From positions 1-24,788 of IMG/VR virus record IMGVR_UViG_3300032086_000866: DNA of 24,788 bases; one strand, written 5' to 3'. Shown here one piece after another: positions 1-22,546 of this stretch. Origin of the DNA: a virus. Each line of letters begins with the position of its first letter. Within the stretch, counting starts at the first letter, position 1. The notes beneath the pieces were generated by a model. That model was not told the DNA's origin. It saw only the letters and a list, made by a program, of their open reading frames with translations, and made no database searches. The position numbers and the translations under genes are program-made.

Positions 1-1229
1 TTTACTTTATTGGCAATATTTTTAAATCTACCATTCCAATTACCAGAATATTCTTTTGTATCTGGAAGATAGTTAGATGGAACTTTTACTTTTAAAAGTT
101 TTAAATCAAATTTTCTGTTTGGGATTTGCGCAAAAGACCGTGCATCTAATGTTGTGCCTATTAATGCGCAACTAGGATAATAAAGCTTATATGGCACAAT
201 TTCAGTAATTGAGCTAAGGCTACCCTCAACTTGGGAGGTATCTGATTGATATTGTGTTGTATCTTCAACTCTAAATACTTTAACGACTCTGTTGACTTTA
301 TTAGGGTTTGGTGGCAAATGTATAGTATTTTCAAAAATATAATCAGATGTAGATAATCCTTTGACAACTTTTACAAAGTATCCACCAGTGTCGTTAAAAA
401 CTAATTCTCCTTTTCTGTAGCCATCATCTCGGGGAACAGGTTCGCTCACTTCATACAAAGGTGGATTGTCAAAGTCAATTTCTCCACTTTCATTACCAAC
501 ATAAATTAAAAACGTAAGCTCTTCTGGAACTTGTTCACTTGACCTTTTTCCAGTTTTAAGTTTGGATAATACGTGTACTGTAAGACTTACTCGAATAATT
601 TCTACCAAAGGATTAACTATGGTGTGTGTTACAGCAAACATATCTTGCTCTTTGTTTTTAAAATATGAATGCAGAGCCGACTTAGAATTAATTTCACTTC
701 TATCGTTATAGTGACTTAATAACTCTTTCGGTGAACTCATTGAGCCTAGTTCTTCAGTTATTGCGTCTTTTATTCCCGCGGTCATACCTAATGTATTTGC
801 GGGTATTAATCTTACATTTTTAGAAATAGTTTGTGACGCAAATTCATAATCGTCAGGAAGAGCATCTTGTACTTCTTTACCTTCTCTATAATCTAAATCA
901 AATATTTTATAATTATAAGTGTCTGAATCGGGATTATAAACTTTTGTTTCATCTAGAAAAACAGATTGCAAAAATGGAAAATTTATTTTTCTGTTGGCCT
1001 TGAAAAATCTTAAAGTATTACCGTTTTTATCTGAAAATCCTTCAATTGGACCTTCTGATATCAAATCAATAATTTGCATTGTACTAGCCGACTCTAGCAC
1101 TTCAAAGTCTTTGCTCAGGTCTGAGTCTAAATCTTTAGATATTCTGGGCGTTCTCGCCCTGCGCGCATTTTCTTTTTTCTCTTCGTAAGAAAGGTATCTA
1201 GAATTAGCATTGTTTGACTTTAAAATCAT
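1..1229 (-). CDS. J: Tail tip attachment protein J, N-terminal part (cut by window edge)
   Basis: This reading frame has no stop from its ATG at 1229 to the left edge, so about 409 residues are visible and the C-terminal part is missing. The start overlaps the stop of gene I as TAATG. Around residues 51-66 the protein reads MQIIDLISEGPIEGF, the hallmark of the N-terminal domain of lambda-type J (TipJ) proteins. Near the cut end it has VPSNYLPDTKEYSGNWNGRF, matching the J-family pattern of a Pro-Ser-Asn-Tyr stretch followed by Tyr-x-Gly-x-Trp-x-Gly. In lambda, J forms the trimeric central tip and binds the receptor; the receptor-binding end would lie outside this window. It follows M, L, K and I in the lambda order, which strengthens the call. 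Whether it ends in its own adhesin domain cannot be seen here. Confidence 0.9.
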   Translation of the reverse strand, partial: MILKSNNANSRYLSYEEKKENARRARTPRISKDLDSDLSKDFEVLESASTMQIIDLISEGPIEGFSDKNGNTLRFFKANRKINFPFLQSVFLDETKVYNPDSDTYNYKIFDLDYREGKEVQDALPDDYEFASQTISKNVRLIPANTLGMTAGIKDAITEELGSMSSPKELLSHYNDRSEINSKSALHSYFKNKEQDMFAVTHTIVNPLVEIIRVSLTVHVLSKLKTGKRSSEQVPEELTFLIYVGNESGEIDFDNPPLYEVSEPVPRDDGYRKGELVFNDTGGYFVKVVKGLSTSDYIFENTIHLPPNPNKVNRVVKVFRVEDTTQYQSDTSQVEGSLSSITEIVPYKLYYPSCALIGTTLDARSFAQIPNRKFDLKLLKVKVPSNYLPDTKEYSGNWNGRFKNIANKV

Positions 1230-1810
1230 TAATTTAAATCCTTTCCTATACCTATTCCTGGCGTCTTGAGAAATCCTATGTTACCAATTTTTTGTACTTT
1301 TCCTTTGTAGCCGTCAAACTCGTAAAGTTGTTGATTTCTTAATGATGCAGAGATAACTGTTGATCCGACCCTTAATCTTCCATACCCAAGCGGAATAGGC
1401 ACTCCCTGGGCCGCAGTATTTACTGGGCCTGAAAATAAATATGATTTTGTTTCTTTTTCTTCTTTTGGTTTGGGCGGCTTGAAAAGTGCCTGCATAATTA
1501 AACCTGTAACAATAGAAACTACTATTGCAGTAATAGTGGCCACAACCCCGCCAGCAACTTGCGGCATTATATGAATATTTTTTGACTGCCTAGGTAAAGA
1601 AGATTCTAATTCTGATTGCTTTTCCAACGTTTTATTATCTACTGAAAAAGTGTAATGTTCAAATTTATCTTGATTTTTGCTAAGAAACTCGGTCAATTTA
1701 CCAGTGTTGGCTTCGATTGCCCACAAAGCTTCTTGAACAGAATCAACTTCAAGCTCCCAATGCTTGCCTAAAGTAGATCCTAACTCTCCATGTAGATATA
1801 CGTTCTTCAT
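1229..1810 (-). CDS. I: Tail assembly protein I (lambda gpI-like)
   Basis: The 193-residue protein begins with a YLHGELGSTLGKHW stretch and a VQEALWAIEANTG helix, the usual start of lambda gpI-type proteins. Residues about 78-84 (IHIMPQV) precede a strongly hydrophobic segment at about 86-110, then a Pro/Lys/Glu-rich linker. The C-terminal part (LFSGPVNTAAQGVPIPLGYG) is also typical of the family. In lambda, I acts at the tail tip together with J and L, and the hydrophobic segment is thought to sit in the tip until ejection. The gene lies 15 bases after K and its stop overlaps the J start as TAATG. The gap before it carries AAGG-rich ribosome binding sequence within the shared leader motif. 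Confidence 0.85.
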   Translation of the reverse strand: MKNVYLHGELGSTLGKHWELEVDSVQEALWAIEANTGKLTEFLSKNQDKFEHYTFSVDNKTLEKQSELESSLPRQSKNIHIMPQVAGGVVATITAIVVSIVTGLIMQALFKPPKPKEEKETKSYLFSGPVNTAAQGVPIPLGYGRLRVGSTVISASLRNQQLYEFDGYKGKVQKIGNIGFLKTPGIGIGKDLN

Positions 1811-1817
1811 CCTTAAA

Positions 1818-1835
1818 CCTTAATATTATATACAC
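1818..1835 (-). promoter_or_regulatory. Leader motif copy before gene I
   Basis: On the minus strand the gap reads GTGTATATAATATTAAGG, followed by TTTAAGG and the ATG of gene I. It contains a TATAAT-like hexamer preceded by TG, and two AAGG Shine-Dalgarno sequences. Related sequences occur before the tape measure, before the gene at 17948, before the SAP-like gene and, on the plus strand, before the gene at 21371. It could be a late promoter, a translation enhancer or both. No convincing -35 box is visible. Confidence 0.45.
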
Positions 1836-2557
1836 GAAATATGTCGATATACAGAGTGAATTCTATCAAAATATTGACCGTCAAGATATGTTTTTCTAGA
1901 TAAAAATTTTCCTTCGTGATGAAAAAACTGATTCTCGCCGCAATAAACTCCAAAATGAGAAAAATATCCATCTATTTCAAACAAAATTAGATCATGTAAT
2001 TTTAAATTTTCTGTGTCTTTTATTTTTTTAAATTTATTTATTTTTAAAAATGTTTTGACAATGTTAATAGTATGCCCACTGTACGCTTGTCCATCTTTTG
2101 TTAAAGCAAAGTTTAGCTCAAAATAACTCAGTATTTTATTTAATATATAATAGTCTACGACAAATCTAAAACAATTTCTTAAATCTGGCACATAATCTCT
2201 TTCGTCAAGTTTTGGTATTTCATAATTTTCTGGAAAATGAAGATAAAACTCTTTAGTTTTTATACTATAAATATAAAATGGTAACTGCCAGTTACGCGCA
2301 GATAATTTATCAAACTCTGATGGTTGAGGTCCAGATATTGTGTGCGAATGATAAATAGACAAAATGTCAAGCCCCTTACTTTTTTCTATAAAACATTGTG
2401 GTGATATTTCAAAATAATTTTCTTTTTGTGCATGAGCATTTTCGCAAGGAACTACTTGTATTTCTTTTAAATTATTTAAGCCAATCAATCCGCAACATTC
2501 GTTTTCTTTTTCATATTCTGCATGAGCTTTTATAAGTTTTTGTATAAAATTATACAT
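1826..2557 (-). CDS. K: Tail tip peptidase K: JAMM (JAB) plus NlpC/P60 domains
   Basis: With the ATG at 2557 the protein has 243 residues. The first half is a JAB/MPN+ domain: Glu20 in an ECCG sequence, then His70-Ser-His72, seven residues, Ser80 and Asp83, a complete HxHx7SxxD zinc-binding motif. The second half is an NlpC/P60-type domain with Cys129 (LRNCF), His201 (FSHFGVYCG) and His213/214 as likely catalytic residues. Lambda K has the same two-domain order and is thought to process tip components and cut peptidoglycan during entry. A longer frame begins at a GTG at 2608, deep inside L, but the ATG at 2557 overlaps the L stop by only 8 bases (ATGTATAA) and starts right at the domain, so it is preferred. 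The ribosome binding site is weak, so translation is probably coupled to L. Confidence 0.88.
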   Translation of the reverse strand: MYNFIQKLIKAHAEYEKENECCGLIGLNNLKEIQVVPCENAHAQKENYFEISPQCFIEKSKGLDILSIYHSHTISGPQPSEFDKLSARNWQLPFYIYSIKTKEFYLHFPENYEIPKLDERDYVPDLRNCFRFVVDYYILNKILSYFELNFALTKDGQAYSGHTINIVKTFLKINKFKKIKDTENLKLHDLILFEIDGYFSHFGVYCGENQFFHHEGKFLSRKTYLDGQYFDRIHSVYRHISCI

Positions 2558-3692
2558 ACCCAAACTTATCGGTGCCAGGAAATCCTCCGAATGGTAATCC
2601 TCCGCCACAATCTTTAAATCTTAACGCGCACCCAGAAATAGTTTTGCTGCATTGATCTTGAACCCAATTTGATTTATCATGTCTTGGATCACTGCCAGAT
2701 ATATTAAAATGAGAAAAAGATACTCCATTAATTTCTGTCACAGCCTTACCTGTTGGTTTTGCTACAAAATACAATTTTATATTTTCGTCTACTTTAAATC
2801 CATCAGAATCAGAATTTAAAAAACTGTCGACACTTACAACATCTCCACTTAAATATATTCCAGTAGCGTTATAAGTACCAGAATTATGAAATGTTTCAGT
2901 GTTAGTATCACCGTCATCATTTAATGTATTCCACGCCACATTGACAGCTGTTGAAAATCCATAGCCACCTGCTTCTGTTGAACTAAAAAATATTTTATCT
3001 TTTGCATCTGCAATTGGAATACCAAGAGCTTGATGAGAATTTTTGTCTTTAAAGCGCTCACGTATATGTGCAAAAGAGTTTCCGTAATTACAACCGTATC
3101 CACGATATACCCAAGTACAATAGTTACTAATTACTTGTCTACTTGGTATTTTAACAGTATCCATTTCCAAAACAGACACCAACTCAAACTCAACTACATT
3201 TTTATCTTCTAAAATTTTTTGGTTTATAACAAACTTATCATCTGGAAATCTAGCGTTTATATCTGGATCTCCAAAAGGATTTGAGTTGTGAAAAAAGTTT
3301 ACTGCATCTAAATATTTTAAAAATATTCTTTTTCTAGTAAAATGCAAGCCAACAAAGTCGTCTCTACCGTTTATAATATCAGATATAAATCCATCAACGT
3401 TTGCAATACGCAGACGCGGGCGAGGCAAAGTTCCGTCACCTTTAATTTCAACTTCTTCAATTTCAACAGGAATAGATTTATAAACTTTGCCATCGTACAC
3501 AATATCACCATTATGAACTTTTCCAGCGTGAAATCTATATATACCTACTCCGTATTTTTTTGCGTTTACCTCGAATAGCTCGACAATAGTGGTTGCCTGC
3601 AAATTGTGAAGTTGCTCTTGCAAATTGTAAGTAGTAACTCCAGTTTGTAAGTTTGGAACTATTATATCATTTCTTTTATCTTGTATTGACAT
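2550..3692 (-). CDS. L: Minor tail protein L with iron-sulfur cysteines and an inserted domain
   Basis: The 380-residue protein resembles lambda gpL. The N-terminal half has the family look (EVNAKKYGVGIYRFHAG, RLRIANVDGFISDII). Cys192 and Cys201 (NYCTWVYRGYGC) and Cys348 and Cys355 (DQCSKTISGCALRF) match the four cysteines that bind a [4Fe-4S] cluster in lambda L. The C-terminus LPFGGFPG is the classic L ending. In lambda the two cysteine pairs lie close together; here about 145 residues separate them. The insert (about 205-345) includes GIYLSGDVVSV followed by LYFVAKP, similar to modules at the N-terminus of the M fusion protein. L forms a trimeric ring between M and J at the tail tip. It starts 5 bases after the M fusion gene ends and overlaps K. 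An extra Cys362 is present. Confidence 0.88.
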   Translation of the reverse strand: MSIQDKRNDIIVPNLQTGVTTYNLQEQLHNLQATTIVELFEVNAKKYGVGIYRFHAGKVHNGDIVYDGKVYKSIPVEIEEVEIKGDGTLPRPRLRIANVDGFISDIINGRDDFVGLHFTRKRIFLKYLDAVNFFHNSNPFGDPDINARFPDDKFVINQKILEDKNVVEFELVSVLEMDTVKIPSRQVISNYCTWVYRGYGCNYGNSFAHIRERFKDKNSHQALGIPIADAKDKIFFSSTEAGGYGFSTAVNVAWNTLNDDGDTNTETFHNSGTYNATGIYLSGDVVSVDSFLNSDSDGFKVDENIKLYFVAKPTGKAVTEINGVSFSHFNISGSDPRHDKSNWVQDQCSKTISGCALRFKDCGGGLPFGGFPGTDKFGYV

Positions 3693-3697
3693 TTTTA

Positions 3698-6600
3698 TTA
3701 ACCTGTTGAATCAGACGTAAATTTATTTCTTATTGTTATAAATCCAGCGTAGCTAGTATTACCAGCTCTTAAACCAAAGTCGGCTATTTTGCATTTTTTA
3801 TGAGCTGGTCTCTCTGCGCTTAAAATCTTTAATCTATAATATCTATAAGCAGTAGTATTATCAATTTCATACGAACGAATTAGTCCAGGAATGGAGACGT
3901 AGTCTTTTGACATAGCAGCAGTATTGAGACCAACTTGCAATGGCACAGGGTTTTGTTGTCTTGGTACATCATTTTCTACTCGATCTAACACAGTATATTT
4001 TGAGTCCTCCAAAGGCTCTCCGCCAACACCATGACCGTTGCCCGCGTTTGTGGCTTGTAACTCCCAGGAAGTTGGTGCGTACACAGTCCCAAATAAGCTA
4101 TTTACATTTGAGTATGTTTGATAGTATTTCATGTCAGCGCCAGCACTGGTGATTGTGTAACTTGAAACTACTTTCTTAATGTCGTCATCGCTTGCATCTT
4201 TTCCAAAGTCATAAACTAAATAATAAGGAAAACCACCTGCGCCTTCAAATAAAACATAATCTGCAGCATTTCCAACGCTGGACGGATGTATTTCTTGATT
4301 AAAAGCTTTCCATGCGGGGTAAGAAGCATTTGTTGCAATCGCATATTGAGATTTGTCAGGGCCATTATTTCTAATACCACTCATGTAGCCAAGGGTATTG
4401 TTATCATTTAGTTCTTTAACATTTGCCGCTCCGCTGTTTCGCGCGGTCAAATATCCTCCTATTCCAATTTGATTTCGGTAAAGCTCTGAGCTTTTTGCAT
4501 TTGTTTCGCTTCTATGGCCACCAGCGATTCCAATTCCGCTTGCGGGAATATTTGTTGTTTCTGACAATATTTCTATGTTACAACCATTTGTTTCTATACA
4601 TAGCCCACCGCTTCCGCCGTATCCATAGTTTCTAGGCTCTGCGCCATTAAGGCCTAGATGTCTTTGTCTTGTGGCTTGTACTGGATGTTCGCCATTTCCA
4701 CCATCCATACCATATCCCCCACCAAAGCCTCCGACACCGCCAGCATTTCTATCTGCCTCGTTGGAATTTTTACTCATCCTGTCAAATGGTTTATAAAAAT
4801 TTAATATGTTATGCTGATCAACAGTATAAATACCTCGCTCTCTAACTTTGCCAGCTATTGATCCGTCACCTCCATCTGATGCAATTTTTAAATTTTTATT
4901 ACCATCATCAAGCAAAACAATTTGAGAACTTTGTCCATTTTGTGACGGCTTGCCTTGTATGACGCCATATGATGTTTTTGCGCTTACACTGTTAATTTGT
5001 TTATTTCTAAATCTGCTTGTATGTTTGGCTCCCTTACCACCAGATGCGCCACCTTTATTTGTTGTCAAAGAATCATTTTTTCTAAAGCCCGCACCTCCTC
5101 CACCTGCGCCTCCAGCTCTAACTTCTAAAGCTATATCAACATTAGCGGTGCCTCGAGTAGTACGCCTTAGTAAAGATTTTGTACTCCGCCTTCGGTCTTC
5201 GCTAATGTCGTCGTTAAATCTATCTACGCCCTGCTTATGACTAATCGCTTTTCCGTCTGTATTAGCTATATTATTGTATCTAACGCCACCTTGTCCACCG
5301 CCGCCTCCTCCACCAACAATAAATCCTCCATTATTTAGTATTTTTACTGGGTGGTCATCATTTTTCCAAGTGGATTGTATGTGTAAAGCTGTGCCACCAT
5401 TTTCTCCGTCAAATGGTTGAGTATTATCAGAGTTATCGTCAAAGCCATTCGGTAGCATGTATATTCCCTCGCTAATTCCCTTGGTCGCTCGCGATGCTAT
5501 CGGCCCAACTCCTTGCAATTCATGAACTGAGCCAACATTTGATTGACTAGCTGATAGCGCATCGGCGCTATTCTTATTTGCATCAGTTAGTTCGGTAGAC
5601 AACGCAAAAGAAGTATCACCAGTATTGTATGCGTCTGCACCCTTACCTCCTGCGCCAATTATTTTAGCTCCTTCTTCTAAAACTATTTTGAGTGCTAACG
5701 GATTGAATATTGAATTAGTTGCCGCAACACCACAATCAAAAGCTGGAACTGATGGGTCGTCTGACATAATAAGCGTGTCAGCTTTTATTACGCAGTGTAT
5801 TCCAGAAAAATATGCGTAATCACTTAAACCTAAGTCTTCCAAAACTTTATCAGCTTCTTTTCTAAGATTAAATTTGTTAAAAAACTTACCATCTGATCCG
5901 TCTAAAACTACTTGTAGTGCGCCGCTTTCAGTGATAACAGCGCCAGTTGCACTTGCTCCAATATTTTCTTTAAACGCTGCGGTAGCAAAAGTTTTTTCAG
6001 AAGAAGTGGCAACTCCTAAAATATCTGTATTTGCGGCTGTAACTTTATAATAATATTTAGACGAAGCTAAGACAGGTTCATGTCTAAACGTTGTTATGCC
6101 AGTAGGTATGCCAGTTGCTAAATAGCCAACCCAATCTTTGTTGCCGCCACCGACGTAACGATCTCTTTCTGTGCGATTACCACCAATTCTTAACCACCCG
6201 TCTTGAGCTCGCTTACCTGAAATTACAGAAAAATCTGAAGCGCTTGGTATGTTTGCTAATTCATCATCATTGCCATTATCCAAAGCAAAAGAAACTGAAA
6301 TACCTGTTGCAGTTTTTGGATCTTGTAACTCCCAACTGCCAGTAATTGCAGCGACGCCAGGAACTTGTCCTACTTTTAAGTTTATTGGTATACCTGGGGC
6401 GGCGTCATGAACAGCTTCACCAACTAAGTCTACTTTTAAATCGCCACTAGGATCTGGAAATAAAAATTCATCAGTCGTAGAAACAGTTAATGCACTATCT
6501 TTTATTCCGCCAAATCCGCCAGGGTCAGCAGTATACATTATTCTGCCTTCGTGAAAACTTATTTTGCTTGCTGCAGCAGTATTTGGAGTTCCGCCGATAC

Positions 6601-8119
6601 CTGCATGTTTGCCAATGTCACCAGTATGGCCCGTTGTAGAAAATATAATATTAAAACGTCCACTATCTCCTGGATACAATTTATAGGTCATAGACGTTGG
6701 CGAATATTCTTTTATTCTGTCGTCTTTTAAATCTTCAAATTTATAAAGACCACTTGCTGCTTGTTTACCAGATAAACTTAATGTAGAAAGAATTGTTTCA
6801 TCTCCACTGTTTACTAAAAACATTCCTGTTCCAGAAGCAAAGCCAGTCATAAACGCGCCAAAATTAATTCCTGTGGTTGCTCCATAAGTTTCAAATCCAT
6901 AATCTTCACCATGAAACGGAGCTAATACTTCTCCATTTTCTGTTGCAATAATTGTAGAAAACACTCTGGCTTTTCTGGTTAAGTCTAATGGATTTTGTTC
7001 GAATTGTAATTCAAATCTGTGATTGTCATCATATACATAAGTGTGTCTCCAATTTTCACAGACAAAACTCCTCATGTCTCCGCTGTGAGGTGCTGGAGGA
7101 TTAAATCTAAACGTTTGATAATTTTGTTTACTTAATAAAAACTGAGATATAGCAACAGCTTCTTTGTTGGATCTACCTTCTAATATCAAACTATATTTTA
7201 AATTGTTTGTATTGATTCCGTCATTAAAACGTTGAACGAAATCATTTTTTATATCAACTGTTGAAAATCTAACATTGGTACTTAAATTGGTTGCTATAGA
7301 AGGTTTAAATATAAATTCTTCGTTTGTCCACAATGTTCCTTTGCCTGTTGGACTATTGTTTACAGTTGCGGTAGAACTTGATGTTCCAGTATAATAATAA
7401 TATCCGTCACAACCACTTAATGTTCCAAGTATACCACCACTATGATAAACAGTGTCATATAAATTGTAAGTTCTTCCAGCTTGCCAAATACCATCAGTAT
7501 TGCCACTTGGTATAAATCTTTCTAACCAACTTGTTGCACTGTTAGTTTCGTTGATAAAACTGGTTTGAATATTTTTTACATCGTTAAATTTTTGCTCTAA
7601 AGAATATCCATCACAAAAGTGCTCGTGCTTTTTATCGTATGGATAAAATGGTTTGAATTGAAAACCAGTGACGCCAGAAACTGCTCCACTTAATGCTTCA
7701 AATGAATGGCTTTCAATAAAATTAGAAATAGCTTTTGCTTCTCTGTCTGTTCTGCCATCGAATGCTAGCGCATAAGTTGCGCGAATATTATTAACAGATT
7801 TTGGTATCAAGGAAAAATATCCATCACCAAAATTTATTCTTTCATTTTTAGCTTCAAATGTTACGCTGCTTCCATATCCAGGCTTAAAGAAAAACTCTCG
7901 ACTCCATTTGCTTGCTGCGCCAGTAGGAGCGTTGGAACTTGCCGCGGCAACATTATCATTACTAGAAGTGTGAGAAGTTTCGCAATAATAATATCCAGAA
8001 TCGACAGGTAAACATCCTGTGTTGTTCAACACGCCGTTACCAGTAAAAAATACAACGTCGAACTTTTTATATTCGTGCGCTGGCTTCCATCCAGAAATTT
8101 GTATATTAGGATTATTCAT
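3698..8119 (-). CDS. Giant tail tip protein: tandem gpM domains, Fn3-like, glycine-rich and F5/8C-like adhesin
   Basis: The 1473-residue protein begins with two copies of a unit. Each copy has a binding-like module (residues 1-78 and 205-268, with DVVFF...GYYYC and DTVYH...GYYYY) followed by a lambda gpM-like domain (79-190 and 270-380, with NFGDGY, a FDGRTDREAKAISNF helix and a late Cys). Residues 385-570 are unassigned beta-rich sequence. An Fn3-like domain spans about 575-713, starting PGIPINL and ending YYYKVTAANT. Residues 715-825 resemble the domain that opens glycine-rich C-termini of J-type proteins (ALKIVLEEGAKIIGAGGKG). A glycine-rich region runs to about 1230 with runs such as GGGGGGGQGG. 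The C-terminus (1245-1455) looks like a discoidin/F5-8C domain (YPAWKAFNQ, YYLVYDFG, SYTIT, SWELQATN, YRYYRLKI). Lambda gpM has only 109 residues. Position between tape measure and L fits M. It probably carries host-binding arms. Confidence 0.75.
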   Translation of the reverse strand: MNNPNIQISGWKPAHEYKKFDVVFFTGNGVLNNTGCLPVDSGYYYCETSHTSSNDNVAAASSNAPTGAASKWSREFFFKPGYGSSVTFEAKNERINFGDGYFSLIPKSVNNIRATYALAFDGRTDREAKAISNFIESHSFEALSGAVSGVTGFQFKPFYPYDKKHEHFCDGYSLEQKFNDVKNIQTSFINETNSATSWLERFIPSGNTDGIWQAGRTYNLYDTVYHSGGILGTLSGCDGYYYYTGTSSSTATVNNSPTGKGTLWTNEEFIFKPSIATNLSTNVRFSTVDIKNDFVQRFNDGINTNNLKYSLILEGRSNKEAVAISQFLLSKQNYQTFRFNPPAPHSGDMRSFVCENWRHTYVYDDNHRFELQFEQNPLDLTRKARVFSTIIATENGEVLAPFHGEDYGFETYGATTGINFGAFMTGFASGTGMFLVNSGDETILSTLSLSGKQAASGLYKFEDLKDDRIKEYSPTSMTYKLYPGDSGRFNIIFSTTGHTGDIGKHAGIGGTPNTAAASKISFHEGRIMYTADPGGFGGIKDSALTVSTTDEFLFPDPSGDLKVDLVGEAVHDAAPGIPINLKVGQVPGVAAITGSWELQDPKTATGISVSFALDNGNDDELANIPSASDFSVISGKRAQDGWLRIGGNRTERDRYVGGGNKDWVGYLATGIPTGITTFRHEPVLASSKYYYKVTAANTDILGVATSSEKTFATAAFKENIGASATGAVITESGALQVVLDGSDGKFFNKFNLRKEADKVLEDLGLSDYAYFSGIHCVIKADTLIMSDDPSVPAFDCGVAATNSIFNPLALKIVLEEGAKIIGAGGKGADAYNTGDTSFALSTELTDANKNSADALSASQSNVGSVHELQGVGPIASRATKGISEGIYMLPNGFDDNSDNTQPFDGENGGTALHIQSTWKNDDHPVKILNNGGFIVGGGGGGGQGGVRYNNIANTDGKAISHKQGVDRFNDDISEDRRRSTKSLLRRTTRGTANVDIALEVRAGGAGGGGAGFRKNDSLTTNKGGASGGKGAKHTSRFRNKQINSVSAKTSYGVIQGKPSQNGQSSQIVLLDDGNKNLKIASDGGDGSIAGKVRERGIYTVDQHNILNFYKPFDRMSKNSNEADRNAGGVGGFGGGYGMDGGNGEHPVQATRQRHLGLNGAEPRNYGYGGSGGLCIETNGCNIEILSETTNIPASGIGIAGGHRSETNAKSSELYRNQIGIGGYLTARNSGAANVKELNDNNTLGYMSGIRNNGPDKSQYAIATNASYPAWKAFNQEIHPSSVGNAADYVLFEGAGGFPYYLVYDFGKDASDDDIKKVVSSYTITSAGADMKYYQTYSNVNSLFGTVYAPTSWELQATNAGNGHGVGGEPLEDSKYTVLDRVENDVPRQQNPVPLQVGLNTAAMSKDYVSIPGLIRSYEIDNTTAYRYYRLKILSAERPAHKKCKIADFGLRAGNTSYAGFITIRNKFTSDSTG

Positions 8120-8877
8120 TATTGATATGCTTGTGTTACTGATATTCCTCCGATAAGGTATCCTTGTTGATCTACGTTAAGTTCTTGTTGTGATATTCTG
8201 CCGCTACAATGAAAATGCTGTAATGCTGTTGAATCATTGATATCAAATATAGAACATTTTAAATTTGCTTCTGTACCTCCGTCATTGATATTTCCTCCAA
8301 TGTTGTCTCCTTGTATTGACATTTGTATATTTGTAGCTTCTTTTGTTACTCTTGTTGGCGTAGTTTCTCCTGCAAGATACACTGGATTTCGTGCAGCTTG
8401 AACAGAATAATTAAAACTTAATGTATGATTCATATTGCTAGGAGTTCCAGCAACAAAAGATTTTATCGAATGAGAATATTTGTCTTTGGCTAATTCTGGA
8501 TCATAACTAGAAGAAATGTTACTAGAAAAAGATCCATAAAAATCAAAAGAACTTTCTACAAGTATTGGTGCATATGGTTGAACTTCAAACCGCATGGATT
8601 TTAAATATGCATTGTCAAATGTTAAACCGCCAAAAGATCCGTTTGTAGAAGTTTCTGCGACTCCTGTTACATCTAAAAAACTTGCAATACTTCCTGTTAA
8701 ATAATGACTAAAACTTAACGTGCCTCTTGCTCCATTTGTTGGTGCGTATCTGTGAATAGTTCCATCTATCAATCTAACAGGCTGAAGACTAGTGTTGACA
8801 TTAATTGAAGCTTGCTGCGCGAAAATACTTTCACCAGCGACCTTTAATAAAACGTCTTCGTATTTTAAAAATGCCAT
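8119..8877 (-). CDS. Tail-tube-fold protein, distal copy (252 aa)
   Basis: This protein is related by eye to the 288-residue neighbour upstream and to the two larger proteins of the plus-strand block. Shared features are a first half with ASINVNTSLQ...TLSFSHYLTG and YLKSMRFEVQPYAPILVESSFDFYG, and a second half beginning MNHTLSFNYSVQAARNPVY. The two halves look like repeats of one tail-tube-like beta domain. It is the most diverged of the four: its C-terminus lacks the ESFSS signature. Its place between the tape measure and the M-type protein suggests a specialised ring near the tail tip, possibly a distal-tail-like adaptor. Start and stop overlap both neighbours as TAATG, which suggests equal production with them. 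Family membership is an inference from pattern; the exact role is not known. Confidence 0.6.
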   Translation of the reverse strand: MAFLKYEDVLLKVAGESIFAQQASINVNTSLQPVRLIDGTIHRYAPTNGARGTLSFSHYLTGSIASFLDVTGVAETSTNGSFGGLTFDNAYLKSMRFEVQPYAPILVESSFDFYGSFSSNISSSYDPELAKDKYSHSIKSFVAGTPSNMNHTLSFNYSVQAARNPVYLAGETTPTRVTKEATNIQMSIQGDNIGGNINDGGTEANLKCSIFDINDSTALQHFHCSGRISQQELNVDQQGYLIGGISVTQAYQ

Positions 8878-9743
8878 TATCTTGTTCTGTTAATATATTT
8901 TGTAAAAGTTAAATTCACCAATGCAACACCGTCTACTTCACTAGAAAAAGATTCATTTACCAATCTTGCATCATCTAAATGAAAAGATGCTAAACTTGTT
9001 CCGTTATCTCCATTAATATCTATATTTACTTTGCCAGTATAAACTCCAGTTAAATAGTTATATAGATTTTTAGTTTGATAGTCATCAATTTCAAGTGTTA
9101 AATTTGTTGTTTGTTCAATTGGATAAATGCTGTCTACTTGCACTGGGAACTTTGCTTTTGTGTCACTTGCGCTAACAGGCAATGCGTATACTGCTTGCCT
9201 TGGACAATTTACTTCGTGACTAAATGAAACAATTCTGTTTGTGGCAGTTTTTAATTCGTCGCAAGTAATTGTCATTGATCCCATGTTTGGCGGCTCAATA
9301 GTTTTATCATTTGCAGAAGCGCTGCCTACACCAGCAGTTTCACTTGCGCTTAGTATTCCAGGTCCTAAGTCTCCATAAACAGAAATATTAGTTGACACAC
9401 TTGGCAAGTTACCAACTTCACAAGATATAGAATATGAAGTTAAATATCCACTGTGAAAACCAAATGATCCTGTACTAACTGCTCCATGTTTATATGTTAC
9501 AACTCCACTAAACGCAAGACTGTCACCTGTCATATTTAACAATGCATCTTCGTTTATCAAAGTTCTTTGTATAGTAAACTCGCCTTCTAATGGTTGATTA
9601 ATAATATTGTTTACATATCCGTGACCAATAACATTTATAGGCTGCTCATTGATGCCATACGAGCCATTGATAGATTGCACACCAGACAAACCAGTGCCAT
9701 TTACAAAAAAGTTTTGCTCGTATGATAATGATGCGTTTTTCAT
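8877..9743 (-). CDS. Tail-tube-fold protein, distal copy (288 aa)
   Basis: The protein shares clear signatures with the 411- and 391-residue plus-strand proteins: GYLTSYSISCEVGNLPSVSTN in the middle matches ITNYSVNASVGAVPTASVS, RIVSFSHEVNCPRQAVYAL matches HINSFSIDLPLGRSVLQRL, and ARLVNESFSSEV...VNLTFTKYI matches ATLDSESFSSSI...VDLSFTATI. The first half (residues about 20-125) and second half (about 165-288) look like two copies of a tail-tube-like domain. It is translated from a TAATG overlap with the tape measure. Being directly downstream of the tape measure, it may build the last tube rings above the tip, or it could be an alternative tube subunit. No signal peptide or membrane segment is visible. 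Confidence 0.62.
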   Translation of the reverse strand: MKNASLSYEQNFFVNGTGLSGVQSINGSYGINEQPINVIGHGYVNNIINQPLEGEFTIQRTLINEDALLNMTGDSLAFSGVVTYKHGAVSTGSFGFHSGYLTSYSISCEVGNLPSVSTNISVYGDLGPGILSASETAGVGSASANDKTIEPPNMGSMTITCDELKTATNRIVSFSHEVNCPRQAVYALPVSASDTKAKFPVQVDSIYPIEQTTNLTLEIDDYQTKNLYNYLTGVYTGKVNIDINGDNGTSLASFHLDDARLVNESFSSEVDGVALVNLTFTKYINRTR

Positions 9744-12700
9744 TATTGATCATTTGATGTTACGTCGCGTAACATTCCGCCTGTTCGTTTTTCTTGTTTG
9801 AGAACTGACAAAACTGCATCGCGTAATCTTGTTGCCATTTCTCTATCTTCTGTACCAGCGTTTCCTCCGTCAACGTTTGCTTCGCCTGTTCCTGTGTTGA
9901 CTGTGATGTTAACAGTTGTGTTGCTTGTGGCATTGTTGTTTGATGTTTCTGTTTTGTTATTGTTTTGTGTGTCGCCTTGTGCTGGAACAAATTGTTGGTC
10001 GCCAACTAGCCCGCCAGTTTGATAGCCGATTCTTCCGCCGCGATTTAATTTGCTAAAGAATGCGCTGCCGTGCCTGCGTACAGTTGATGGATTTACTACA
10101 AATTCTCCGCCAGTCAGCATTGCAGGAATGTTGTCGATGTAGCCGCCACTTTGGTATTCAATAATAACGTTGCCATTTTTATCTTTTTGAATTTTCCTAG
10201 GTTTACGATTCTCAATGGCGTCAATTAATGTAGCATCGCCTTTGAATTTGTCATGTAGACCTCTTCCTCTGTTAAGCATATTGATAATTCCTTGATTAGT
10301 ATTACCCATTCTTGCACCAGGTGCTTGATTTCCATGTCCATAACCTCCCGCTGCATCAATCATTCCCTGTGACGGAGTAAAACCCGAACGGCCAGCACTT
10401 GCAGGAACATTAGGACTACCAATAATTCCAAACTTATTGGCGATTGAGTCGACCAGGCCTTGGAAAAATGACCCCATAGACTTTCTGTCTCCACCTTTTA
10501 TACCTCGCTTTCTCATAGTGTCCATGATTGCCCCAGGAGTACCGCCATGCGGGCCCATTGGTGAAACTGCGCCTCGGAATTTTTCGCCAGCCAATAATCT
10601 TCTTCTTGATTCGGCCAAGGCGTTCATGTGACTACGTGCGTGTGCGGGCATTGGTTTCATCATTCCCGCTTGCTGCCCAGGCTGAAGCATACGTACAGGT
10701 GGAGCCGTTGAAGCTCCAGGTATCATATTGTACCCAGGAGCGAGTCCTGTGTTTGGTCCGCGCGCAGGCCCCATTACTGGATCTTCAAAACCAAATATTC
10801 CAGAAGTAAAGTCCATTTGGTCTTGGGTAGCAGTTGGTTTACTAAAAGCTCCTTTCGCCTTATCCACTCCAAACGCTACCGCACTGCTTACAACGGCTCC
10901 AACAATTGTTTGTACTAATTGGTCTTTTTTAGCTTGAGATGCAAATTTCTTTTGTCTTTGTTTTTCGTGATAATTTTGTATATCAGCCCTTACGTTTTGC
11001 AATATTGGGTCGTTAGCATGAGCAAAGCCACTTAATCTTGGATCTGTTATTCCTAAACGAACAGATGCGCCACCGCCACCTAGTGCGCTGCCCATACCTG
11101 CAACAGGAGGTAAAAATTCATTTTCTTCAATTATTTTATTTAAAGCACTTGATTTTACTCCTGCCGATGCAATTGGAGAAGCAAGTCTACCGCCACTCTG
11201 AAACCTTGGAGCTATGCCAAAATTTAAGCCATCAATTGCGCTTGGCCCACCCAAAGCTTTTACAGCGTTTCTGTTTAATACGTATTCGCCGTCTTCTAGT
11301 AATGCTGGATTTTTGTCACCCGTACGACCACCAGAAATGTACATTCCGTTTTGAGCTTTTATTAAACCACCTTTTTGGTTTCCGCCGAATAATCCTTTAA
11401 GAAAACCTTGGCTCTTTCCGCCTTCTGGAAATAGTGCTCCAGTTAAACTTTGAGCAATACGTTCTGACTGTATTTTGTTGATTGCACCAAAAACAGAAAT
11501 GCCAAAGTCCATCATTGCATTTTTAGCAGAAGATGCGCCAGTGGTAATATTTGAAAAAGCTGTAGCAAAAGAAGAACTAAATCCAGAAGTAAAACGATTT
11601 ACATTTTCCATTGCTGCCGCAGTTTCTCTAAGTTCGTCATTTAGCTGTTCAACGTCTTCGGAAAACTTCATACTATTTTCTAGTTCTCTAAAATTTTCTG
11701 CAGTTTGTTGTACGTTAATGCCTAAAGCTTTAAATTTATCATCTTGTTCAAGAATTTTATTTATATTAGTTTTAGCCACGTCAGTTTCGGCTAGTGCATC
11801 TTTAGTAAGTTTACCTTGTTCATCTACTAATCCTCTCTCAAAAAAACCAGCATGTGATATGGACCTAAGGTCAGCTCTTTGATTATCAGATATAAATCTT
11901 AAATCTTTACGCTCTATTCCCAATGCGCCAGCCTGCAAATCCTTAAGATCAGCTTTGCCTTCTGCCGCGCTTTTAAAAAATTTGTCAAGCACATCAAATT
12001 GACCAGCCTCAATATTAGATCTTATCAAATTTCTTGTCATTAACTCTCCTGCTCCTCCACCTGCAAATGAAATGTTCCCCATGTTTTGAACTAATCCAGA
12101 TCCCGCGTCGCTTATAAACTCTTGTCGTTTTCTCGCTTGTTCTACCCTAACGTCTCTACGTCTTATTTCAGTAGCTTTTTTTTCTAATTCTAAACTAGAA
12201 AAAGCGCCGCTTCCCCTTTGTCTAGCTAATACTCCAGCATCACGAAGTGACACTAGATTTCTTTCTCTTGCTGTGGCAAACGCTCTCTCTTTAGCGGTGG
12301 TCATGCGTTCTAGACTTGCCCTTCTTTGCTCGTTGATTTGGCTTCTAAATATTTCGCCTTTTTGTTTTAGGGCTTCTGGTATTCCTTCTTCTGGAGAAAA
12401 TGGTCCTTTCACAAGCGCTCCAAGCGTATCAACGACACTCTCATTTGCGCCCATTTTAGAAATATTCATAAAGCCACCAGAGCTACCCAGCATTGCACCT
12501 CCGAGACCACCTAACACCATGCCAGGTATACCGCCAAATCTAGAAAATCTAGTAAGTTTGGACATGGCTCCCGTTCTTTTTGCGATCGCTCTGCCAGCAG
12601 CTCCGCCAGCTTTGCCGCCCAAAAATCCTCCTGTTATACCGCCAGTTAAAGCTCCTGGTGCGCTGCCAGTAAATTCAGAAAAAGTTGGATCTAGCATGGT

Positions 12701-20067: not shown

Positions 20068-21303
20068 ATGGCAAGAAACAGAGTAATTTATCAAAGTGAA
20101 GCGTTGTTTGTGACCCATCAATATACTGGCAACCAAACAATCGACTTAGTAACTAATGGATGCGGTGGCGTTGGCGGCGCAGCTCCTGACTTTGCTGGTA
20201 CACACGCACATATTCCAGCGAAAGCAATGCACCAAATTCATCGCGTTCAAAGTGCAAACTATAATTTTGCAATTAACAGAACTGACATTAATCAATTTGG
20301 ACAGCTAGCTCGTATAGACACAGCTGTAATTGATGCCCCAACGGTAGGACTAGATTTTACATATTTAGTAACGAATGGCGTAAACGAAGACGCTTTAGGA
20401 ATTAGTGTTGATCCTGCAAATTTAAACGATGCAACAACAGTAACAACTTCTGCCATTTCTGGGATCCTTTCAAATATTTCTGGTAGAAACTATCATATTC
20501 TAACGGTAAAAGAAGGATCTGATGCAAATAACTCATCTTTGCAGGCTTCTTCAGACAGCACTGTAATTTCAATTGGAAATGGTTTTATTACTAACTATAG
20601 TGTTAACGCGTCAGTTGGTGCGGTTCCAACAGCTAGTGTTTCCGTCGAGGGCTTAAATATTACCGCTCAAAGCGGCGCAGCATTAATGACCACTCCAGCG
20701 ATTGACCCTGACGCTGGTACACAGGGTACTGCGACATTTGGATTACCTGCTCCAGTTACTGGAGATGTTGATCAAATAATTAGGCCAGGCGATATTAAAG
20801 TTGAATTTATAGGATCTGCTGGCGCACAAGGCACAGGATTATTAACACAATTAGTAGATGCTGACCGCCGAACCGCTGCTCATATTAATAGTTTTTCAAT
20901 TGATTTGCCATTAGGCAGAAGCGTATTACAAAGATTAGGAAATTCTTTTGGCTTTGCCAGAGAAATCGACTTCCCAGTGCAAGTAAGCGCTAGTATTTCT
21001 GCAACAGTTGCAGATTTAAAAGCGGGCAATCTATTTGATGAGCTTTATACGACAAATAAGCATGATATTGTATTAAAAATGCACAGGCCATCAACCGCAG
21101 GCGCTACTCAAGGTGAAGCTCAGTTGGCATATATACTTAAAAATGCAACACTTGACAGCGAATCATTTAGCTCAAGCATTGGAGATAACAAATCTGTTGA
21201 TTTATCATTTACCGCTACTATTGGTGGTCCACAAGATACAACCAACGGGCTATTTATCTCTGGAATTCAATGCGGAATTAATGCTATTAGAGGTTCAGAA
21301 TAA
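20068..21303 (+). CDS. Probable major tail tube protein, two-domain (411 aa)
   Basis: The 411-residue protein looks like two tube-type beta domains in one chain. The first (about 60-195) contains NYNFAINRTDINQFGQL, PTVGLDFTYLVTNG and ITNYSVNASVGAVPTASVS. The second (about 271-387) contains INSFSIDLPLGRSVLQRLG, FPVQVSASISATVADL and ESFSSSIGDNKSVDLSFTAT. Fused double-domain tube subunits are known from phage T5 (pb6), which forms trimers in place of hexamers. The protein has its own leader and a terminator hairpin just downstream, which fits a gene that must be expressed very highly. This makes it the best candidate for the main tube subunit among the four paralogues here. The fold is inferred from pattern only; a baseplate-like or decorating role is the alternative. 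Confidence 0.62.
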   Translation: MARNRVIYQSEALFVTHQYTGNQTIDLVTNGCGGVGGAAPDFAGTHAHIPAKAMHQIHRVQSANYNFAINRTDINQFGQLARIDTAVIDAPTVGLDFTYLVTNGVNEDALGISVDPANLNDATTVTTSAISGILSNISGRNYHILTVKEGSDANNSSLQASSDSTVISIGNGFITNYSVNASVGAVPTASVSVEGLNITAQSGAALMTTPAIDPDAGTQGTATFGLPAPVTGDVDQIIRPGDIKVEFIGSAGAQGTGLLTQLVDADRRTAAHINSFSIDLPLGRSVLQRLGNSFGFAREIDFPVQVSASISATVADLKAGNLFDELYTTNKHDIVLKMHRPSTAGATQGEAQLAYILKNATLDSESFSSSIGDNKSVDLSFTATIGGPQDTTNGLFISGIQCGINAIRGSE

Positions 21304-21328
21304 AATACCATTAAATATAAGTTATATT

Positions 21329-21362
21329 TTACACCACAGTCTTTTGATTGTGGTGTAATTTT
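21329..21362 (+). terminator. Hairpin terminator after the 411-residue tube gene
   Basis: A 13-base-pair stem (TTACACCACAGTC, with one G-T pair, against GATTGTGGTGTAA) closes a TTTT loop, followed by TTTT on the plus strand. It lies 25 bases after the stop codon of the tube gene. The T run is short, so termination may be partial, letting some transcripts reach the next gene. The 3-prime arm contains the GTGTAA that begins the leader motif of the next gene. Confidence 0.7.
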
Positions 21363-21369
21363 ATATAGG
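21353..21369 (+). promoter_or_regulatory. Leader motif copy before the 391-residue gene
   Basis: The plus strand reads GTGTAATTTTATATAGG and the ATG follows after one further base. The sequence matches the minus-strand copy before the tape measure. The AGG is too close to the ATG to be an ordinary Shine-Dalgarno sequence, which argues that the motif is kept for transcription or another role. It overlaps the 3-prime arm of the terminator hairpin. Confidence 0.45.
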
Positions 21370-21370
21370 C

Positions 21371-22546
21371 ATGAGGAACAGGATAGCATATCAAAACGTA
21401 GGATTATTAACTGGACCATCTCCAGCATATCAAGTTCATAGTGGATCTGATGGCTCTTCAAAGTTAACCGCATTAAACTTAGTTCAAGCAGCAAGTTTTG
21501 ATATTGGAATAAATCGCGCTGAAGTTAAACAAATCGGGGGGAATACGCTGGCCGCAAGACAGCCCGTTTTGCAGCCGAATGTTGCTTTAGGATTCACTTA
21601 TTTATTAACAGATGGAATAAATGAAAAAACATTAGGTTTTAATGTTGCTGGTAATACTTCTTTTTTAAGTGGGGTAACTGGCAATGATGATAGAAACTTC
21701 TTCTTGTTTGTTACTAAAAATCAACAAACAGATTTTAATTTACAAAGTGGATTTAACGATCTTAGTGTTTTAAGTTTTGGCAATTGTTATGTAAATAACT
21801 ATTCTTTGGAAGCTTCTGTGGGCGCATTACCAACTGTGTCATTAGATTATTCCGCGTCTAATGTAAGATTTGACCAAACAAGCGGAACTTACAATCCTAG
21901 TCATAGTAACCCTAAATATGATAATATTTATGCTTCTGGAATTATTCCCGCTGTAGATAGAGATAACGGAACACTAGCAACTGATTTTGACAACTTTGGA
22001 TACGTAGTAAAAGGCGGTAGCACACAAGAAACATTATCGTCTTTGGGTGGAGTATTTCACACTGGAGATACTAAATTTATAGAACCTGGAGACATTCACG
22101 TAGAATTTTCAAACCCCAATATAGGAGGTATACGTTTAAGTGGTTCACAAAAAATGCATGTACAATCTGTTTCAATAAACGTTCCAGTAAACAGAACTGA
22201 TTTATACGGTTTTGGATCTAAATATGTTTACGACAGAAGGGCAGAATATCCAACATTAGGACAAATAGAAATATCCGCCACTGCAACAAATGTTGTTACT
22301 GGACAAACTGATACCATATTTTCTAAAGATGATGTTTATCAAATGGAATTGTTGTTTAAAAAATCTAGCTCGCCAACAAATGCCACTGACACGGTTTTAA
22401 CAAAATTTCAAGACGCTAAAATAGTTGCGCAGTCTATAAATCAAACAATTGGCTCAAATATGTCTTTTAACGCGACTTTCTCATTTGAGTGCAGTGCCAG
22501 TAAGGGATTCTTATTTAGTGGCCTTGCAGCGGACGTGGGGGACTAA
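21371..22546 (+). CDS. Second tail-tube paralogue (391 aa)
   Basis: The 391-residue protein is a clear paralogue of the 411-residue protein upstream. Both begin alike (MRNRIAYQ against MARNRVIYQ), which supports this start. Other shared segments are GINRAEVKQIG, FTYLLTDGINEKTLGF, NNYSLEASVGALPTVSLDY, IEPGDIHVEF and VQSVSINVPVNRTDLYGFG. The same two-domain layout is visible. It could be a minor tube ring, for instance at the head-proximal end, an alternative tube subunit, or a decorated tube protein. A usable Shine-Dalgarno sequence is missing. The stop codon abuts the stop of the convergent minus-strand gene with no base between them. Confidence 0.6.
   Translation: MRNRIAYQNVGLLTGPSPAYQVHSGSDGSSKLTALNLVQAASFDIGINRAEVKQIGGNTLAARQPVLQPNVALGFTYLLTDGINEKTLGFNVAGNTSFLSGVTGNDDRNFFLFVTKNQQTDFNLQSGFNDLSVLSFGNCYVNNYSLEASVGALPTVSLDYSASNVRFDQTSGTYNPSHSNPKYDNIYASGIIPAVDRDNGTLATDFDNFGYVVKGGSTQETLSSLGGVFHTGDTKFIEPGDIHVEFSNPNIGGIRLSGSQKMHVQSVSINVPVNRTDLYGFGSKYVYDRRAEYPTLGQIEISATATNVVTGQTDTIFSKDDVYQMELLFKKSSSPTNATDTVLTKFQDAKIVAQSINQTIGSNMSFNATFSFECSASKGFLFSGLAADVGD

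Follow-up and report, generated by a model that had tools for sequence, protein, structure and literature searches.

In most known siphophages the distal tail ring is a hexamer that leads from a six-fold tube to a three-fold hub, with identical subunits in two conformations. The hub-facing hairpin of gpM has the consensus FGDGY-SQRxxxGLN. In lambda, six gpMs with two E-loop conformations form a three-fold ring on gpL/gpJ (PMC10721106). In T1 gp37, a beta-hairpin (residues 25-44) mediates the 6-to-3 change, connecting a ring of six-fold symmetry with a hub of three-fold symmetry (PMC11945409), and by our alignment this hairpin spans FGNGY...Q....G.N. Other tails carry fused subunits. The tubes of P74-26 (PMC10034513; PDB 8ed0) and T5 (pb6, PMC5717097) are two-domain trimers. 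T5 has in addition a trimeric ring protein, p140, between the tube and the distal ring, and its distal protein pb9 is a single-domain hexamer between three-fold rings (PMC10038345). For the archaeal virus HFTV1, the parts of the report considered here (PMC12494034) describe the BTC protein gp41 as a pseudo-hexameric trimer with two homologous domains, directly above the trimeric hub and below a single-domain hexameric tube. Finally, gp24 of Alishewanella phage LSH1 is homologous to gpM; it has a decoration domain added at its N-terminus and a single gpM domain, and was modelled as a six-fold ring (PMC13243795).

The stretch of DNA analyzed here (the window) is a virus record of 24.8 kb with a minus-strand tail block in lambda-type order (Table 1). 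Along this strand the order is TMP, p288, p252, tip gene, L, K, I and J. Compared with the lambda-type M-L-K-I-J order, two extra tube-like genes stand between the TMP and the gene in gpM position. The tip gene lies between tape measure and gpL, as expected for a gpM / PF05939 distal tail protein. It departs from the norm of one gpM domain in about 110-250 aa, with two domains in 1473 aa. Scans of genome contigs detected no relative and hence gave no host lineage. The insertion in gpL falls between conserved cysteines. In a second gpL, from contig L009 (10495-11397), the insert resembles the modules that precede gpM, with a Y..GD.V...Y....P..W look. As listed, the open reading frame of the gpK-like gene shares about 59 bases with that of gpL (2550-2608), and the K start may therefore be further in.

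Table 1. Tail features of the window (aa, residues of the respective protein; hairpin sequences given with the feature).
Feature	Position	Strand	Basis
Two-domain tail tube protein, 391 aa	21371..22546	+	weak PF18906 and phrog_290 matches
Two-domain tail tube protein, 411 aa	20068..21303	+	half-versus-half profile comparison
Tape measure protein (TMP), 2039 aa	9743..15862	-	length and position
p288, two-domain tail-tube-like ring protein	8877..9743	-	closest folds: tube of P74-26, p140-type ring of T5/DT57C
p252, probably a tail-tube-like ring protein of two domains, encoded between TMP and tip gene	8119..8877	-	weak link to p288
Giant tail-tip (distal tail) protein, 1473 aa	3698..8119	-	gpM position, PF05939 and phrog_14 matches
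N-terminal module 1, aa 8-76, CBM5/12-like pattern, weakly supported	7892..8098	-	best E 0.015 among six members
gpM domain M1, aa 75-188	7556..7897	-	PF05939 and profile E
M1 hub-facing hairpin, aa 96-110, NFGDGYFSLIPKSVN	7790..7834	-	FGDGY kept; QR and G of second half gone
Module 2, aa 209-267, repeat of module 1, in M1-M2 linker	7319..7495	-	repeat pattern
gpM domain M2, aa 267-376	6992..7321	-	PF05939 and profile E
M2 hub-facing hairpin, aa 289-303, DIKNDFVQRFNDGIN	7211..7255	-	FGDGY gone; QR...DGIN kept
C-terminal arm, aa 388-1473	3701..6958	-	FN3-like part, glycine-rich part, conserved C-terminal domain
gpL hub protein, Fe-S type cysteines, insertion before last cysteines	2550..3692	-	TIGR01600, E 2.1e-50
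gpK-like peptidase	1826..2608	-	phrog_30
gpI-like tail tip protein	1229..1810	-	phrog_32
gpJ-like central fibre/hub protein, N-terminal part, cut by window end	3..1229	-	position

Judged by its sequence, the tip gene encodes a distal tail protein that belongs to the lambda gpM family and arose by tandem duplication; both halves are gpM. With hmmscan, PF05939 matched twice within the one open frame. Scanned alone, M1 reached 42.7 bits (E 8.4e-11) and M2 59.6 bits (E 4.5e-16), both above the Pfam gathering cut-off of 39 bits, and phrog_14 (minor tail protein) also matched each half separately. Profile-profile comparison with single-copy gpMs gave E 2.4e-20 for M1 and 1.3e-21 for M2. M1 against M2 gave E 7.1e-14, which identifies them as homologous domains that arose by internal duplication. 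Against the PDB, the profile of the M2 half found lambda gpM (E 2e-5); a match of the M1 profile to ThreeFoil was rejected as a chance GDGY repeat. An AlphaFold2 model of residues 1-387 was of low confidence (mean pLDDT 46.7), with M1 especially poor. Its top PDB fold was lambda gpM 8iyk (E 9.9e-6, rmsd 2.6, target TM 0.76), followed by the T1 tail-tip complex (9l9p_H, matching gp37). A match of this model to the T5 tube was set aside (rank 32, rmsd 25). Thus the two gpM domains that a sequence-only reading had placed at 6980-8119 are found there: each segment on its own belongs to the gpM family, and the best fold of the low-confidence model is that of lambda gpM. Neither outcome that would have spoken against that reading, a gpM alignment of a single segment or a fold outside the family, was observed. 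The pairing of FDGRTDREAKAISNF with LEGRSNKEAVAISQF and of FCDGY with FVCENW, proposed in the same reading, is right by the family alignment.

A module with the pattern W...Y..xD.V....YY......P....W is repeated ahead of each gpM domain. The two units of a binding-like module plus a gpM domain, as originally proposed, are therefore present, while the likeness of the modules to CBM5/12 is weak and below cut-off. For modules 1 and 2, no match to CBM5/12 (PF02839) exceeded the curated score; two of six members gave a match at all, and module 1 of the window itself gave none. In the C-terminal arm, the FN3-like stretch received weak Pfam support, in L003 only. The C-terminal domain has a discoidin-like look, and neither the Pfam nor the PDB profile search backed discoidin. 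From its position and domain style we guess that the arm is a probable host-binding appendage.

The tandem gpM was found in seven other IMG/VR viral contigs and is thus no assembly artefact. Identity to the tip protein of the window was 98% for L001, 69% for L002, 67% for L003, 43% for L006, L007 and L008, and 42% for L011, which is partial. M1 and M2 each form a clade in the tree (support 100/100 and 100/99), and the duplication is therefore older than the divergence of the tandem-bearing phages. Branching among the module-bearing gpMs was not separated. The census of other viral contigs covered 227 gpM open reading frames, none of which held two full gpM domains (longest 251 aa). Of these, 120 were collected via the canonical hairpin motif; since such a scan selects canonical gpMs, 107 were added via a gpL motif independent of gpM. 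Six or seven of the 227 gave two HMM pieces. These pieces had no overlapping profile coordinates and were therefore counted as single domains split by insertions. Among cultured phages, tblastn of M2 hit one place per record in 167 records, a search in which a diverged second copy is easily missed. The phages phiCbK and P74-26, known for three-fold tubes, gave no PF05939 match.

The two gpM domains differ in the hub-facing hairpin. A set of 30 non-redundant single gpMs, selected via gpL, showed 97-100% conservation for residues 25-29 (FGDGY in lambda numbering), 100% for G36 and N38, 87% for Q31 and 80% for R32. M1 continues with FSLIPKSVN after FGDGY, so that Q31, R32 and G36 are absent. In M2, IKNDF replaces FGDGY and VQRFNDGIN is retained. 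The motif FGDGYxQRxxxGxN is complete only when M1 (25-29) and M2 (31-38) are taken together, and the single-copy relatives L009 and L010 retain both hairpin halves. NFGDGYFSL and RFNDGIN had been taken as equivalent places, which the family alignment corrects: RFNDGIN lies about eight columns further on. FGDGY (lambda 25-29) corresponds to IKNDF in M2 (aa 290-294), and RFNDGIN (aa 297-303) to lambda 32-38 (RAPAGLN). The hairpins were also scored against 33 single-copy gpMs with a leave-one-out procedure. At lambda 24-29, M1 scored 16.9 to 20.4, within the range of the singles (minimum 15.9), and M2 scored -6.8 to -17.9, below all 33. At lambda 30-38, M1 fell below all 33, and M2 remained positive with 2.2 to 15.3, low in the range of the singles and in one of four cases below it. 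Scores for the alpha-helix were ordinary in both domains. Such complementary loss in the hub-facing hairpin would be expected if M1 and M2 alternate within one ring, each at one of its two kinds of position.

That each half lacks some conserved family residues could also mean that one gpM domain sits in the ring and the other is a decoration or remnant outside the hexamer, the more so as M1 additionally lacks P76 and W89 and carries an insertion of 9-26 residues. However, the two halves show similar conservation (window versus L006: M1 44%, M2 43% identical), helix and core positions are kept in both, and the losses are complementary instead of being concentrated in one half. We therefore regard a ring with one gpM domain per chain as improbable.

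We consider it quite likely that three fused chains form one trimeric, pseudo-hexameric ring in which the hairpin contacts are split between M1 and M2. In this ring, each of the three chains would place M1 beside M2. Above this ring would stand tube-type rings of two-domain proteins, themselves trimeric, and below it the gpL/gpJ hub, likewise a trimer. After the duplication the hairpin contacts would have been divided, FGDGY going to M1 and QR..DGIN to M2. The two alternating hairpin states, which the single gpM of lambda reaches by flexing, would here be encoded separately; the fusion probably hard-wires the lambda-type hairpin alternation in one ring. Each chain would have a pair of modules facing outward and a long C-terminal arm, so that the ring would present three adhesin arms. 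From these data we infer the stoichiometry (three copies of two domains), the single ring, the specialization for hub partners and the binding to the host.

Hairpin divergence would also arise with M1 and M2 in different rings, and the model of residues 1-387, at its mean pLDDT, does not distinguish side-by-side from stacked domains. Six chains could build a stack of two hexameric gpM rings, M1 above M2, with M1 hairpins touching M2 and only the M2 hairpins touching the hub. The hairpin difference between M1 and M2 fits such different neighbours, and the 60-residue module plus linker could span one ring height. Yet the hub-facing M2 should then keep the canonical hub motif, and it is M2 that has lost the nearly invariant FGDGY. 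There would also need to be room for six chains of 1473 aa between three-chain rings, and the fused tube-fold proteins T5 pb6, p140, P74-26 and HFTV1 BTC all place both domains in one ring. Stacking has, in our estimate, a slim chance. Still less probable, and barely worth crediting, is a chain that is cut after synthesis into M1 and M2 as separate subunits of an alternating hetero-hexamer: its ring contacts would be identical to those of the fused ring, but folded modules, conserved in all relatives, flank the linker on both sides. A trimeric, pseudo-hexameric ring is thus the best we can infer by sequence and analogy, strengthened by the split hairpin and by the literature on lambda, T1, T5 and HFTV1.

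Of the tube-like proteins of the window, p288 and the 411-aa and 391-aa proteins are homologous to each other, and p252 is weakly tied to p288 (N halves E 0.002, C halves E 0.003). N halves compared with C halves of the pooled tube family, including p252, gave E 2.9e-4 over 105 columns versus 0.07-0.7 for unrelated pairs. The AlphaFold2 model of p288 was of low confidence (mean pLDDT 47.8), and its best PDB folds were all tail proteins, aligned over the full length. They comprised the P74-26 tube 8ed0 (E 2.6e-5), the p140-type tip chains of DT57C and T5 (8hqz_L, 9ioz_A and 7qg9_G, the last with E 1.6e-4), an SH-Ab15497 tail protein, the T5 tube and an HFTV1 tail chain. The half-versus-half result and the folds of p288 support the two-domain tube proteins that the sequence-only reading had assumed. 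Because the best matches of the p288 model include the tubes of P74-26 and T5, which are trimers of two-domain chains, three-fold symmetry all the way along the tail, tube and hub included, is plausible here. This single tail locus has four tube-like genes: one pair lies on the plus strand (20068-22546), the other (8119-9743) separates the tape measure gene from the tip gene. A further two-domain tail-tube paralogue lies far from the tail operon in the G002 contig (L276:1019-3526, minus strand), and also in G001 (47473-48600); over its first 350 residues it is similar to the 411-aa tube. In G002 a long repeat region with a beta-propeller look follows, which suggests decorated tube rings.

Two-domain tubes also occur together with a single gpM. 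Full-length homologues of the two-domain tube were found in two single-gpM records, G003 (L009) and G010 (L152), and likewise in G011 (L163), where the homologue has 291 aa and the profile match is partial. G015 (L228) gave a partial match. In all four, an N-terminal module precedes the single gpM. No two-domain tube match was obtained in lambda, RHph_TM16, Vibrio phage NF and seven other gpM-bearing records, some of them short fragments. In L228, a Hint/intein-like domain (PT-HINT E 3.3e-13, Intein_splicing 2.5e-6) stands at the start of the gpJ-like protein (3577-12291, 2904 aa). As the sister phages combine a two-domain tube with a single gpM, the fusion of gpM is not required by tube symmetry. 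The simplest reading suggests that the tube was fused first, which gave a 3-6-3 order like that of T5, and that gpM followed (3-3-3). The earlier proposal that fusion avoids a six-to-three mismatch is plausible as far as a three-fold tail is concerned, but such avoidance cannot be a strict need. A 6/3 step may remain at the head end of the tail, by analogy to the T5 tail terminator, which is a hexamer according to the title of PDB 8bcp. To a more detailed version we give an even chance: M1 and M2 are specialized for different hub partners, one domain for gpL and the other for gpJ, the tail is truly three-fold through tube, ring and hub, and the sister phages keep the intermediate with two-domain tube and single gpM.

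Compared with the described systems, the window protein shares with lambda gpM (PF05939; PDB 8iyk, 8k35) and T1 gp37 the sequence family, the place before gpL, the gpM fold and the hairpin on a gpL/gpJ-type hub. In contrast to these single-domain proteins with six copies, it has a fused pair, modules, a long arm and a divided hairpin motif. LSH1 gp24 resembles it in the extra N-terminal domain and differs in having one gpM domain instead of two. As in T5, two-domain tube proteins and an extra two-domain ring protein stand over the distal tail protein, which is pb9 in T5 and a fused gpM pair here. The hexameric distal ring of T5 below a fused tube indicates that tube fusion does not force fusion of the distal ring. 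The likeness to P74-26, best fold match of p288, concerns the tube and not the distal ring. The HFTV1 BTC, as far as described in the portions of that report cited above, shares with the window protein the origin of two homologous domains by duplication and fusion, although its tube differs from the two-domain tube-like proteins here; these portions describe no fused adhesin arm for the BTC. With this one precedent, the window protein is not the first fused distal ring, and a fused trimeric distal ring can exist. In the window phage, two subunit conformations appear to have been written into one chain by evolution, and the divided hairpin motif predicts which gpM residues serve which hub partner. 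The series from lambda (single tube domain, single gpM) through the sister phages (two-domain tube, single gpM) to the tandem clade (both fused) outlines how a fully three-fold tail could plausibly have arisen step by step.
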